DNA from: a virus
Strand: one strand, 5' to 3'
IMG/VR virus record: IMGVR_UViG_3300032282_001695
Span: 1 to 33,258 of that record
DNA: 33,258 nucleotides
Of this stretch, positions 3,473-17,159 are shown in pieces (position 1 is the stretch's first letter; each line of letters opens with the position of its first letter). The translations under genes were made by a program, and so were the position numbers. A model generated the notes under the pieces. That model ran no database searches, was not told the origin of the DNA, and worked only from the letters and a program-made list of their open reading frames with translations.

Positions 3473-3988
3473 GTGCCACTAGCAGATTTTGAGATTCATC
3501 GTCTTTGCGATAAGCACAAGATGGTGGTTCCTTTTGTACCTGATTTGATCAATCCAGCCAGCATTGACGTGCTACTTGGTGATCGCCTGATGATTGAAGT
3601 TCCCGAACGGCCTGAACTTCAAATCCTAGGTATTGATCATTGCACGCAAGTTGATCCTTACTGGCTTGCGCCTGGTGAGTTTTGTCTTGCCGAAACTCGT
3701 GAGATTTTTAATCTGCCAGATTTTATCTCCGCGCAATTTGTTCTTAAATCAAGTCGTGCACGCGAGGGTCTTGAACACTTATTGGCGGGTTTTTGTGATC
3801 CGGGATGGAATGGCAGCAGGTTGACACTTGAATTGCATAACAGCAGACGTTTTCATAACATTGCAATTTGGCCTGGGATGAGAATTGGTCAGATGGTATT
3901 TCAGCGAATGGATGCCATCCCGTCTCGCAGTTATGCCATCACTGGTCGTTACAACGGCGATTTAGGTGTTACGGCAAGTAAGGGTTGA
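3473..3988 (+). CDS. dcd: dCTP deaminase (Dcd/dUTPase family)
   Basis: A 171-residue protein of the trimeric dCTP deaminase/dUTPase fold. Family features are INPASIDV (26-33), the SSRAREGLE segment (93-101), DPGWNGSRLTLELHN (109-123, with Glu120 at the position of the catalytic glutamate) and a C-terminal GVTASKG tail of the kind that closes over the active site. It converts dCTP to dUTP and ammonia and so supplies dTMP precursors. It starts at GTG six bases after the endolysin and is the last rightward gene of this block. The last 40 bases overlap a leftward gene end to end. Confidence 0.85.
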   Translation: MPLADFEIHRLCDKHKMVVPFVPDLINPASIDVLLGDRLMIEVPERPELQILGIDHCTQVDPYWLAPGEFCLAETREIFNLPDFISAQFVLKSSRAREGLEHLLAGFCDPGWNGSRLTLELHNSRRFHNIAIWPGMRIGQMVFQRMDAIPSRSYAITGRYNGDLGVTASKG

Positions 3989-11880: not shown

Positions 11881-11953
11881 ATCGGGTGATCCCGATGCAA
11901 CAACTATACACCACTTGACACAGCCTGTACACCACTGTTAAAAAAGTTAACAG
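11881..11953 (-). promoter_or_regulatory. Leftward promoter module 3 with perfect dyad and 5' stem-loop
   Basis: On the minus strand: the perfect dyad CTGTTAA-N5-TTAACAG (11953-11935), -35-like TGTACA (11931-11926), 17-base spacer, -10 TATAGT (11908-11903), TGTTGCA, then the stem-loop ATCGGG-ATCA-CCCGAT (11896-11881). Most of it lies inside the end of the upstream epimerase gene, whose TAG stop is part of the -10 box. It gives the recombination genes their own transcript. Confidence 0.75.
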
Positions 11954-12851
11954 TTGCTGCCAGGCCGTCGTCCAGGCAGACCGTTGGATTCCATCCAAGT
12001 TCCTGTTGGGCCAACGTGATCACCGGTTTCCGTTGCAATGGATCGTCTTGCGGCAACGGCAAAAAGACTGCATCACTAGAACTCCTGGTCTGTTCAATGA
12101 CCTTAGCGGCAAGTTCAATGACTGAAAGTTCGTTTGGGTTGCCAAGGTTGATTGGTCCAGTGCAGCTTGATTCCATCAACAGCACGAGGCCATCAATCAA
12201 GTCATCCACATAGCAAAAAGATCTGGTCTGTGATCCATCGCCATAAATCGTCAATGGTTCATCTCTTAAAGCTTTAACGATGAAATTGCTGACGACTCGA
12301 CCATCGTCCTCACGCATCCTTGGACCGTAGGTATTGAAGATTCGCGCCACACGGATCTCGGTGCCGTGCATACGCCAGTAGTCAAAACACAATGTTTCAG
12401 CGATGCGCTTCCCCTCGTCGTAACAGCTGCGAATGCCAATCGTATTGACACACCCCCGATAACTCTCGGGCTGGGGGTGGACTTCAGGATCGCCATACAC
12501 TTCGCTGGTGCTGGCCAGTAGCAGCCGTGCTCCAACGCGACGCGCCAGGCCCAGCATGTTGTAGGTGCCAAGGAAGCTGGTTTTGGCGGTTTTGATCGGG
12601 TTGTGCTGGTAATGCACCGGTGAGGCGGGGCATGCCAAATGCCAGATGCGATCCACCTCGAGCTTGATCGGCTCGGTCACATCGTGGCGGATCAGCTCAA
12701 AACGCGGATGGCCGATCCACTGGGCAATGTTGGCCTTACGACCCGTGAAGTAGTTGTCAAGGCAGATCACTTCCTCGCCGGCCTGCATCAGCCGATCCAC
12801 TAGGTGAGAACCAACAAAACCGGCACCGCCGGTGATCAGATTTCGTGTCAT
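11904..12851 (-). CDS. UDP-glucuronate decarboxylase-like SDR (UDP-xylose synthase)
   Basis: A 315-residue extended short-chain dehydrogenase. GGAGFVG (8-14) binds NAD and Asp32 is at the end of the second strand. The active site is S/T at 114-116 in [10 protein letters not shown] plus Tyr144-x3-Lys148 in the RSCYDEGKR segment, typical of UDP-glucuronate decarboxylases, which make UDP-xylose. NTYGPRM and RSFCYVDDL are also family motifs. It is full length. The N-terminal coding half looks more GC-rich than its neighbours, which suggests capture from a cyanobacterial host. ATGA coupling upstream shows it is integrated in the operon. Product could serve surface polysaccharide change or DNA glycosylation. 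Confidence 0.8.
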
Positions 12852-13919: not shown

Positions 13920-14684
13920 ATGCCACGAATCCGATCAGCCGGGTTTTCCATCTGTCCACACGCCTTAATGGACCAGATGGCAGAACCAGGCGGAAAGCAA
14001 CGCGTCTGCGTCTACCTGCTGCTACACCGCTATGGCAACGGCAGCGATCAAGGCTGCTACGCATCCGTCACCACCATGTCCAAGCAATTGGGCATGAAAC
14101 GCCATGACGTCATGACAGCCATCAACTGGCTGCTCGCTAACGGTTGGGCTGTTTACAGCACTGCCTCAGATGGCCGTCGCAGGCATATTTATCTCAATGT
14201 TGACCAGCAAAAAATCGGTGTCCAAAAGGGCACCGGTGTCCAAAAAGGCACCAATCAGATCGGTGTCCAAAAGGGCATCGATATCGGTGTCCAAAAGGGC
14301 ACCCTAACTAAATCCCATAAACAAGATCCCTCTTCATCTTTCATAAGAGCTAAAGCTCTTATTCCAGATGAAGATCCGGTTCTCAGTTCAAAAACGATCA
14401 AAACCAAAGCCAAGGCACTGTCAGCTGATCTGGCACAGCACGCGGATCTGATCCACTCGTTCTGGAAGATCAAGAAAGGTTCCAAAGGCGACATCGCTTG
14501 GAAACTGCTGTGCACAGAGCTGACAAAATTCCATGACAACCTCGGTCCAGCAGCTGTCGAGGAGCAGCTCACGCAAGCCATCAATGGCAAGTGGGCTGGC
14601 ATCAGCTACAGCCGCCACCTCCAGTTCAACCCGCACCTAGTCACCGCCACCACATCCACCACACCGCAGTACGACATTCGCTGA
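13920..14684 (+). CDS. Replication initiator-like protein with internal repeats
   Basis: A 254-residue protein from the ATG at 13920; ATG at 13968 is an alternative, and a GTG at 13875 lies in the terminator stem. Residues about 18-85 form a winged-helix domain (KQRVCVYLLLHRYGNG, SVTTMSKQLGMKRHDVMTAINWLLANGW), as in phage replication organisers. Residues about 100-130 hold four GVQKG repeats encoded by the iteron-like DNA. The C-terminal 80 residues are a helical domain (LIHSFWKIKKGSKGDIAWKLLCTELTKF) ending GKWAGISYSRHLQFNPHL. With no polymerase or helicase in view, it probably loads the host replisome. Confidence 0.75.
   Translation: MPRIRSAGFSICPHALMDQMAEPGGKQRVCVYLLLHRYGNGSDQGCYASVTTMSKQLGMKRHDVMTAINWLLANGWAVYSTASDGRRRHIYLNVDQQKIGVQKGTGVQKGTNQIGVQKGIDIGVQKGTLTKSHKQDPSSSFIRAKALIPDEDPVLSSKTIKTKAKALSADLAQHADLIHSFWKIKKGSKGDIAWKLLCTELTKFHDNLGPAAVEEQLTQAINGKWAGISYSRHLQFNPHLVTATTSTTPQYDIR
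14216..14362 (+). other. Candidate replication origin: four iterons and AT-rich inverted repeat
   Basis: Four copies of CGGTGTCCAAAAgGGCAyC start at 14216, 14234, 14261 and 14285, spaced 18, 27 and 24 bases. They encode GVQKG repeats but use almost the same codons every time. They are followed by an A+T-rich stretch (14304-14345) and a perfect 8-bp inverted repeat ATAAGAGC-TAAA-GCTCTTAT (14343-14362). Lambda has the same plan, with origin iterons inside its initiator gene O. Confidence 0.65.
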
Positions 14685-14977
14685 TGGAACTCTTTGAACC
14701 ACGCCTTGCCAACGCTTACGTCTGGGCCTGCACCGACAAGAAAGAAAAATCGTTTTCGCCAAAGATGCTTTACCGCGCCACGTCGGACCCGACCTTCGAC
14801 AAGCTGGCAATTGACCACGTACAGGTCTCAGAATCGCCTGTAGGGCGCTTTGACGAGCTTGGACGATGGTGCACCTACTGTCCGCCGATCAGCGGCATCT
14901 ACGGCGGTCTGGCGCGTTATGTGCTGCATCCGCATGCAGAGGCCGCTCGTCAACGCATCCTTCAACCCACACGCTGA
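14684..14977 (+). CDS. Small protein, unknown
   Basis: A 97-residue protein from the ATG at 14684, which shares a base with the initiator stop (TGATG); a longer upstream frame runs inside the initiator gene. Features are FSPKMLYRATSDPTFDKLAIDHVQV and a WCTYCPP motif (Cys-x2-Cys), then GGLARYVLHPHAEAARQRIL. The CxxC might bind metal. Translational coupling suggests a replication accessory. Confidence 0.65.
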   Translation: MELFEPRLANAYVWACTDKKEKSFSPKMLYRATSDPTFDKLAIDHVQVSESPVGRFDELGRWCTYCPPISGIYGGLARYVLHPHAEAARQRILQPTR

Positions 14978-15246
14978 TGGCACTTACACCACTCGGAACT
15001 TTCTCGGGCACCGGCGAAACCCTCGCGCACATGGCTGCCAAAGGTCTTTGCACCATTGATGACCTTGATCACCGTCCACCAGGATCAGATCCAAAATTCC
15101 AACCGCAAAACTTGCTTCGCAACTGGATTCAAGGCAATCAAGCCAAGTGGGCCGAAATCCGCGCACAGCACAACATGCCAGACGAAATAGCCGTCGAAGC
15201 TGGACCGTCCCCTAGAGATTTTGTTCCAAATGATCTACCATTTTAA
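14977..15246 (+). CDS. Small replication-region protein, unknown
   Basis: An 89-residue protein from the ATG at 14977 (TGATG overlap). It has a helical N-terminal half (GTFSGTGETLAHMAAKGLCTIDDLD), a polar middle (FQPQNLLRNWIQGNQAKWAEIRAQHNM), and ends DFVPNDLPF. The short acidic-aromatic tail resembles the C-terminal tip of SSB-type proteins, so it may bind a host replication factor, but that is speculation. Confidence 0.65.
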   Translation: MALTPLGTFSGTGETLAHMAAKGLCTIDDLDHRPPGSDPKFQPQNLLRNWIQGNQAKWAEIRAQHNMPDEIAVEAGPSPRDFVPNDLPF

Positions 15247-15267: not shown

Positions 15268-15480
15268 TTGTCAGAGCAATTCTTTGTTGTCACAGTTGAC
15301 TCATCCCCATATACGTTCAGTTATGGTTCCGACAACAATCTGCTCTACCTAATTCAATGGCCAGATGGAACCAAAGCAAAACGACTCATCAGCGGGGGTT
15401 ATCTGATAAATTTTGACGCAGCGCACAAACATGCTAAAAATTACGCAAACTACATCCACACAATCTCAAGCAATCATTAA
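15268..15480 (+). CDS. Small beta-rich protein, unknown
   Basis: A 70-residue protein; the only usable start in frame is TTG at 15268. It is beta-rich (FFVVTVDSSPYTFSYGSDNNLLYLIQWPDGTKAKRLISGGYLINFD), then a helix. The WPDG turn suggests a small barrel. No family was recognised, and the unusual start lowers confidence. Confidence 0.5.
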   Translation: MSEQFFVVTVDSSPYTFSYGSDNNLLYLIQWPDGTKAKRLISGGYLINFDAAHKHAKNYANYIHTISSNH

Positions 15481-15487
15481 CCCGACA

Positions 15488-16306
15488 ATGCCAGCCACCA
15501 AAACTTTTCCATTTGATGAAGTGGAAATTACTCCAACCGCAACCTCGATCAAGGACTTAAAGCACGATCACAAGAATGCAAGGCGTCGTACTGATCGCAG
15601 TAGCAAGTTAATCGCTGAATCCTTAAAGCAATTTGGTGCCGCTAGATCAATCGTCATTGACGAAGACAATCGAATCCTTGCCGGCAATGGCACCATTGAA
15701 GGTGCAAAAGCGGCTGGCATCAAAAATTTACGTGTCATCGAAACAGATGGCACTGAGATCATTGCTGTTAAACGCACTGGTCTTTCAGAAGATCAAAAAA
15801 TTGGTCTTGCACTCGCAGACAACAGAACCAGTGATCTCAGTGAATGGGATGCAGCAATGTTGCATCAGCTCAGCGAAGAACACGACATCACAACTTGGTT
15901 TGATCAAAATGAATTAGACGAGTTATTTGGCGTTGAAGATGCAATAGATGAAGACAGCCCGTACACAAATAAAACAACTGCGCCAATCTATGAACCAAGC
16001 GGCACTCAGCACAAACCTGATCACCTTTACGATGCAGCAAAAACAAAACAGCTGATTGCGGAAATAGAACTTGCTGATGTCCCAGATGATGTCAAAACAT
16101 TTTTGATCTCAGCAGCACATCGACACACGGCTTTTAACTACAGCAAAATTGCAGACTATTACGCCACCGCACCAAAGGAAATTCAATCGCTTTTTGAAGA
16201 CTCTGCTCTTGTAATTATTGACTTTGAACAGGCAATTCAAAATGGATTCGTAAAACTTGATGAACGCGTTGAACAAGCCTTCAAGCAGGACCATCCCAAT
16301 GCGTAA
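15488..16306 (+). CDS. ParB-domain protein paired with a glycosyltransferase
   Basis: A 272-residue protein from the ATG at 15488, 7 bases after the preceding stop. Residues about 15-110 form a ParB/Srx N-terminal domain: KDLKHDHKNARRRTDRSSKL, then FGAARSIVIDEDNRILAGNGTIEGAKAAGIKNLRV and LALADNRTSDLSEWD. No ParA or partition-site repeats are nearby. The C-terminal half is helical and unassigned. The next gene, a glycosyltransferase, overlaps it by 8 bases. From memory, ParB-fold proteins recur in phage DNA base-modification cassettes, in some cases as kinases; here either DNA binding or an enzymatic role fits. Confidence 0.75.
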   Translation: MPATKTFPFDEVEITPTATSIKDLKHDHKNARRRTDRSSKLIAESLKQFGAARSIVIDEDNRILAGNGTIEGAKAAGIKNLRVIETDGTEIIAVKRTGLSEDQKIGLALADNRTSDLSEWDAAMLHQLSEEHDITTWFDQNELDELFGVEDAIDEDSPYTNKTTAPIYEPSGTQHKPDHLYDAAKTKQLIAEIELADVPDDVKTFLISAAHRHTAFNYSKIADYYATAPKEIQSLFEDSALVIIDFEQAIQNGFVKLDERVEQAFKQDHPNA

Positions 16307-17159
16307 TGACTTCTGTGTTTTCATCCTGTCCAACCGCCGACCGGATAACGTAAAAACACTTGAAACCCTGCAAAGATCTGGCTACACCGGCAAATGGTTC
16401 ATTGTCATTGATGACGAAGATCCAACCGGTGAACAATACAAAAAGAATTTTGGTGGTCAAGTATTAGTCTTCTCAAAAGCAAAAATTGCTGAAACAACAG
16501 ATTCATGTGATACCTCTAAAGATCGACGCACTCCACTCTGGGCACGGAATGCCTGTTGGGATTTAGCAAAACAGGTCAACTGTCGCTTCTTCTGTCAGCT
16601 TGATGATGATTACACTTGGTTCTCTTACCGGCGCATTGGCAAAAAAGAAATTGGCCAAAAACCTAAATACTCAAACTTCAAGGCAGAAAGTCTTGATGTC
16701 GTATTTGATGGAATGGTTGAATTCCTAGAAAACAATCAATCTGTCTCGAGTTTGGCATTCTCGCAAGGTGGTGACTACAACGTCAGTTCTGAAAAGGCTA
16801 GACGTGTTCTGCGCAAAGCAATGAACTCTTTCTTTTGCGACACCCAACGTCCATTCAAATTTATTGGCAAATTCAACGATGACGTCAATACATACATTGC
16901 CCATGGGGCAACCGGCAAACTCTTCTTTACATACTGCCCAATCCAACTAACACAAGGCGTAACACAGCAAAACAAAGGTGGCATCACTGAAGCCTATAAA
17001 GAAAATGGCACCTATGTAAAATCCTTCTACACAGTCATGATTTCACCCTCGTCAACCTGGATTGAGTTGATGGGTCACACCAACCCACGTCTCCATCACA
17101 CCCATGACTGGAATAAAGTCTGTCCTAAAATCTTGCACGAAAAGTATCGAAGGCAATAA
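16299..17159 (+). CDS. GT-A glycosyltransferase, probable DNA-modification (TET-associated) type
   Basis: A 286-residue protein from the ATG at 16299. CVFILSNRRPDN (6-17) and GKWFIVIDDEDPTGEQY (31-47) give the nucleotide-binding start of a GT-A fold. FFCQLDDDYTWF (97-108) holds the DxD metal motif (Asp102-104). SFSQGG-like AFSQGGDY (153-160), RKAMNSFFC and FNDDVNTY (192-199) follow, then QNKGG. These match, from memory, the TET/JBP-associated glycosyltransferases of phages, which put sugars on hydroxymethylated bases. It is coupled to the ParB-domain gene and lies just before the terminase. Alternative: a surface glycosyltransferase. Confidence 0.7.
   Translation: MRNDFCVFILSNRRPDNVKTLETLQRSGYTGKWFIVIDDEDPTGEQYKKNFGGQVLVFSKAKIAETTDSCDTSKDRRTPLWARNACWDLAKQVNCRFFCQLDDDYTWFSYRRIGKKEIGQKPKYSNFKAESLDVVFDGMVEFLENNQSVSSLAFSQGGDYNVSSEKARRVLRKAMNSFFCDTQRPFKFIGKFNDDVNTYIAHGATGKLFFTYCPIQLTQGVTQQNKGGITEAYKENGTYVKSFYTVMISPSSTWIELMGHTNPRLHHTHDWNKVCPKILHEKYRRQ

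Follow-up and report, generated by a model that had tools for sequence, protein, structure and literature searches.

Origins within initiator genes

The replication origin of phage lambda has been defined as a set of iterons plus a 38-40 bp A+T-rich segment that is opened by the O protein (PMC5043065; PMC3349717), dimers of which bind a 19-bp dyad (PMC5043065; PMC7466680). In the annotated genome, the iterons (39034-39118) lie in O and are followed by an A-rich segment and then by a 28-bp palindrome, GTCAGAGAATTC-TGGC-GAATCCTCTGAC, a hairpin element that is missing from the ori-lambda definitions in PMC5043065 and PMC3349717. Phage P22 has an annotated ori inside its O-like gene 18, with iterons and an A-rich segment, as well as its own DnaB-like helicase (gene 12). 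PAJU2-type O genes, the products of which are winged-helix proteins of the Pfam family Phage_rep_O, contain dyad repeats and an A-rich segment encoding a KD-rich linker, and a P-like gene adjoins O. Outside the phages, the ssiA and ssiB sites of RSF1010 oriV are strand-specific DNA hairpins for initiation, comparable to the present case only in how they work (PMC4434180).

The window analyzed here is a virus record of 33,258 bases, a siphovirus-like contig with terminase, major head, and tape-measure matches, of which the closest isolate by initiator protein in the phage collection searched is the Synechococcus cyanophage KBS-S-2A (34% identity). A phage replication origin embedded in its own initiator gene is predicted there with high confidence, and comprises the following features.

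13920-14684, + strand: replication initiator gene, 254 aa from the ATG at 13920, with HTH_36 and phrog_678 matches
13992-14195, + strand: predicted winged-helix DNA-binding domain (AlphaFold model, Foldseek)
14217-14234, + strand: iteron 1, GGTGTCCAAAAGGGCACC
14235-14252, + strand: iteron 2, GGTGTCCAAAAAGGCACC
14262-14279, + strand: iteron 3, GGTGTCCAAAAGGGCATC
14286-14303, + strand: iteron 4, GGTGTCCAAAAGGGCACC
14304-14330, no strand assigned: spacer, candidate unwinding element from sequence and composition
14331-14374, + strand: hairpin of 20+4+20 nt (covariation, recoding test, DNA fold)
14430-14681, + strand: helical C-terminal domain (conservation; helices in a low-confidence model)

The ATG at 13920 (MPRIRSAGFSICPH..., MPRIRS) is most likely the start codon, because the MPRIRS start is conserved in five relatives (L003, L004, L010, L014, and L020). 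The N-terminal part of the protein matches HTH_36 (PF13730, 2.9e-8), the only Pfam family above the cut-off, and the protein as a whole matches several PHROG families of replication initiators from phages, the best being phrog_678, "replication initiation O-like" (4.3e-8), over residues 17-215, which span the winged helix and the C-terminal part. Lambda O also matches phrog_678 (1.7e-35), whereas PF04492 (Phage_rep_O), matched by both lambda O and PAJU2 O, gave no match to the window initiator; these profiles thus mark the window initiator as a remote O-like relative from a different Pfam subfamily, which would work as lambda O does. AlphaFold places helices and strands in residues 9-76 (numbered from 13968), with pLDDT of about 70-79 over residues 31-70, and Foldseek returned generic MarR/ArsR-type winged helices (best E 0.015, none below 0.001). 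Residues 79-162 have pLDDT below 50, consistent with the unstructured linker proposed in the first-pass annotation. The C-terminal domain, which is the most conserved part apart from the winged helix, probably contacts a helicase or its loader, by analogy with lambda O.

The likeness to lambda O and ori that had been proposed from the letters alone is supported. In both systems, the gene contains four repeats, each an 18-19 bp dyad centered on an A-run, at spacings of 18/27/24 in the window and 20/24/23 in lambda, and iterons, A-rich segment, and palindrome with a 4-nt loop follow one another in the same order at matching distances. The window differs in having an HTH_36 rather than a Phage_rep_O N-terminus, a spacer that is less A+T-rich, and no recognized P-type loader, and some of its relatives have five iterons, one inverted and one in the other frame. 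P22 gene 18 contributes a further likeness, a CCCCC-TAAA-GGGGG hairpin with a loop identical to that of the window, but has a short G+C stem and another iteron sequence in addition to the phage helicase mentioned above. The PAJU2-type genes, despite their different Pfam family, adjoining P-like gene, and other iterons, share the winged-helix protein, the in-gene dyads, the linker, and a covarying hairpin with a C(TNRC)G or C(TNC)G loop. In KBS-S-2A, the initiator gene (CPKG_00028) occupies the same position in the gene order and contains in-gene CCCCAAAAGGTGG repeats, but their sequence and reading frame are different and only a weak hairpin of 5-6 bp with a different loop is present. RSF1010, unlike the window, in which no primase and a single hairpin were found, has its own RepB' primase.

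A covarying hairpin beside the iterons

The first-pass annotation had placed a perfect 8-bp inverted repeat after the iterons; it is present but belongs to a larger structure, in which ATAAGAGCT/AGCTCTTAT (14343-14351/14354-14362) pair perfectly over 9 bp inside 20-nt arms (14331-14350 and 14355-14374) that enclose a TAAA loop (14351-14354) closed by C-G. Its hairpin score of 11 was reached by none of 1000 synonymous recodings, and the single-stranded DNA folds at -12.1 kcal/mol (z = -5.7). Among 10 distinct cyanophage relatives, which represent few independent lineages, 87.5% of cells in the 20-nt arms are paired, against 32-42% in controls with the arms slid by 1-3 columns, and the covariation score of 0.464 compares with no more than 0.142 in these controls. 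Double changes occur at 11 of the 20 pairs (38 double-change cells), with one outer and one inner position showing all four Watson-Crick pairs. In this family, the hairpin lies at a fixed distance from the last iteron, and its loop is always one of the 4-nt sequences TAAA, TGAC, and TAAC, with C-G as the closing pair. The comparison demonstrates, at the sequence level, selection for base pairing in a stem whose sequence is free to change; the idea that the hairpin is a recombination boundary at a module junction fails to explain these compensatory changes.

Hairpins in the corresponding place were found in other phage families. In genes about 40-100% identical to PAJU2 O, a perfect hairpin directly follows the A-rich linker. 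Those with tetraloops pair in 98% of cells, compared with no more than 65% in slid controls (score 0.795, controls up to 0.208), and those with triloops score 0.723 (controls up to 0.236). The PAJU2-like loops are TAAC, TGAC, TGGC, TTAC, TAGC, and TATA, or TTC, TAC, and CTC, almost always closed by C-G. P22-like genes have CCCCC-TAAA/TAAC-GGGGG, ACCCCC-TAGC-GGGGGT, or GTCATC-TTGC/TGGC-GATGAC, Mannheimia-like genes have TAAC, TGAC, or TATC loops, and the HK225 and lambda loops are TGAC and TGGC, respectively. The window, with its covarying stem, C-G closure, and TAAA loop of the form T-N-R-M, falls into the resulting C(TNRM)G class. When unique perfect stem-loops with a 4-nt loop are counted, this class accounts for 20 of 33 in the zone after the A-rich segment and for 5 of 82 in other parts of these genes (Fisher 1.3e-9). 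The figure is indicative only, as the loop class was defined after part of the data had been seen, related sequences were treated as independent, and the rule that delimits the zone assigned most cyanophage hairpins wrongly. Several PAJU2-like genes (within L057-L077) have a second hairpin-like stretch, TCGACGC-TGCC-GCNTCGA, about 15-20 nt past the first. In L044 and L055-L079, the C-terminal domains of the O proteins are swapped right after the hairpin, which would place the hairpin at the edge of the origin module.

The data do not support a universal occurrence of the hairpin. No clear hairpin was found in the Bacillus, Psychrobacillus, Paenibacillus, and Lactococcus initiator genes tested, nor in those of Vibrio K66, Proteus V3, Klebsiella RCIP0034, and Enterobacter MII_001. 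Some lambdoids, as well as the Gram-positive phages tested, have no such hairpin or only a weak one. A primase trinucleotide (CTG) as a general rule was rejected, since phages within one host group have loops with CTA, CTG, or CTT.

The strongest competing explanation is a role of the hairpin at the RNA level, within the initiator mRNA, for example as an attenuator, a stability element, or a protein-binding stem-loop whose UNR loop is like a U-turn. Transcription of the gene includes this region, and the TNRM/TNC loop is fixed on the coding strand, which has the sense of the mRNA, and is similar to UNR U-turn or UNAC tetraloops. Against this, no G-U pair occurs among 175 paired cells in the cyanophage family, which has six A-C mismatches and no G-T, and the PAJU2 tetraloop set has three G-T and two A-C; as G-U is not in excess over A-C, a DNA role is favored. 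Furthermore, no T-run and no terminator-like match on the + strand accompany the hairpin, an Rfam search with it returned nothing, and its set place beside the iterons is kept among relatives despite the swaps of C-terminal domains. An RNA role is thus unlikely, and we read the hairpin as a single-stranded-DNA structural element of the predicted origin.

It is tempting to go further and regard the C(TNRM)G or C(TNC)G hairpin as an unrecognized conserved element of in-gene O-type phage origins, common to cyanophages and to phages of Pseudomonas, Salmonella (P22), and Pasteurellaceae, that has the lambda palindrome as its counterpart and serves after unwinding as a helicase or primase loading signal or as a boundary; this generalization is tentative, with the chances somewhat against it. 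The palindrome in lambda ori is an old observation, on which a limited literature search returned nothing, and what is new is the conservation of the hairpin with covariation and a constrained loop, not the existence of the palindrome.

Iterons selected as DNA

The four 18-bp iterons (GGTGTCCAAAARGGCACC; 14217-14303) are imperfect dyads, and a repeat search located them, together with the inverted repeat, exactly where the first reading of the sequence had put them. In the 27-nt register, the repeats begin at 14214, 14232, 14259, and 14283, and the core occurs nowhere else in the window at zero or one mismatch. Repeated dyad sites thus lie within the coding sequence of the initiator, as in origins of the lambda type.

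Such sites could also form an operator array for transcription regulation by the winged-helix protein, with the origin elsewhere: dyad sites resemble operators, the fold is MarR/ArsR-like, and the gene adjoins the point at which gene orientation switches. This is nevertheless very improbable, given that the array is located some 300 bp into the coding sequence and not at a promoter, that no promoter-like match on the + strand was found near it, that the profile matches are to phage replication initiators, and that the lambda O, P22 18, and PAJU2 O genes share the layout.

The near-identical codon choice of the repeats, held in the first-pass annotation to exceed what the protein requires, was confirmed by synonymous recoding: with core motifs counted at up to one mismatch, 0.2% of 1000 recodings of the gene reached the observed four cores (mean 0.62). 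In the same test, most relatives gave 0-0.4%, with up to 2.6% for L010, the exception being the truncated L006, which has one copy. In each of the six possible pairings of four close relatives, codons 83-133 have accumulated proportionally fewer synonymous changes than the remaining codons of the gene, a difference that is significant in five pairings (p 0.0001-0.04; p 0.10 in the other); between L001 and the window, for instance, they number 1/44 in these codons and 44/164 elsewhere.

Conserved GVQKG peptides with diverged codons would have spoken against DNA sites, and relatives at 57-67% protein identity display the opposite, as the DNA motif is kept and the peptide is not, the same 13-16 nt appearing in another frame. 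In L010, L011, L012, L015, L016, and L020 (57-63% identical to the window protein by tblastn), a single gene has CCAAAARGGCACC or a closely similar sequence in two frames, read as IQKGT in one and as YPKRH or APKRH in the other. In five of these six (all but L016), a copy on the opposite strand encodes SALLGT, SALLD, or SAFLD, and the frame-shifted and inverted copies lie at about gene nt 285 and 327. In L016 (4015-4124), three iteron copies have changed in concert to AAAAGTGCAC, which suggests co-evolution with the winged helix. Because the DNA is kept while peptide, frame, and strand change, these comparisons demonstrate that the iterons are selected as DNA rather than as peptide, and the frame-shifted and strand-inverted copies amount to a natural proof, as far as sequence can give one, of DNA-level selection within a coding region. 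That the repeats are instead selected as GVQKG peptide repeats, their DNA likeness being a by-product of recent duplication or codon bias, is rejected as wholly implausible: although QKG(T) is the most frequent translation (38 of 49 counted copies share one phase) and QKGT is encoded at least once in all relatives, one and the same DNA sequence yields two peptides within a gene, the inverted copy (one per gene) yields a third, the residue before QKG varies even in same-frame copies (V, T, A, S, I, D, or G) where synonymous change is low, and KBS-S-2A has PPKGG with a similar CCCAAAAGG core.

The predicted origin and its setting

In the mechanism that we propose for the predicted origin, dimers of the winged-helix N-terminal domain would bind each imperfect 18-bp dyad and bend the array, upon which the adjacent G-poor, A/C-rich spacer would open. 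The first-pass annotation had described an A+T-rich stretch here; A+T content is indeed elevated (about 63%, against 50.5% for the genome), though only modestly, and the unwinding-element label is thus weaker than in lambda. More striking is the near absence of G from the + strand of 14300-14339 (one G, 15 C; GC skew -0.875). The C-terminal domain would then bring the host DnaB-type helicase, and at the distal end of the spacer the hairpin would form in the now single-stranded DNA, or be extruded. Its position, fixed loop, and free stem fit a barrier or a loading/priming role, from which we infer that it most likely either keeps the melted region from extending uncontrolled or closing again, or marks the first loading site of helicase or primase.

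The genomic surroundings were also surveyed. No P-like helicase loader or phage DnaB adjoining the O-like gene was recognized in this 33-kb, possibly partial, contig, no phage helicase, primase, or polymerase was recognized among the 30 window ORFs scanned, and the two ORFs downstream of the initiator (14684-14974 and 14980-15243) have no significant family match. Searches for relatives in bacterial genomes and for the origin region in plasmids returned none. Cumulative GC skew turns 2.3-2.4 kb off the array in both genomes, at 11.9 kb in the window and at 14.2 kb in KBS-S-2A, where the array lies near 16.7 kb; skew follows gene orientation in both, all coding strands being C-biased at fourfold sites, and so provides no evidence for or against the origin site. 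Neighboring genes include a ParB-like gene (15413-16306; phrog_620, 1e-37) shortly downstream of the initiator gene and, amid recombination and replication genes, a nucleotide-sugar epimerase gene (phrog_540; 11904-12851, minus strand). A gene matching phrog_842 (beta-glucosyl-HMC-alpha-glucosyltransferase; 16257-17159) and a dCTP deaminase-like gene (3473-3988) possibly reflect DNA modification or nucleotide metabolism.

In summary, a precise origin is predicted for a group of cyanosiphoviruses about whose replication hardly anything has been described. The frame-shifted and strand-inverted iteron copies separate selection on DNA from selection on protein, and the covarying hairpin may be relevant to what delimits the opened region and to where the first helicase or primase is placed.
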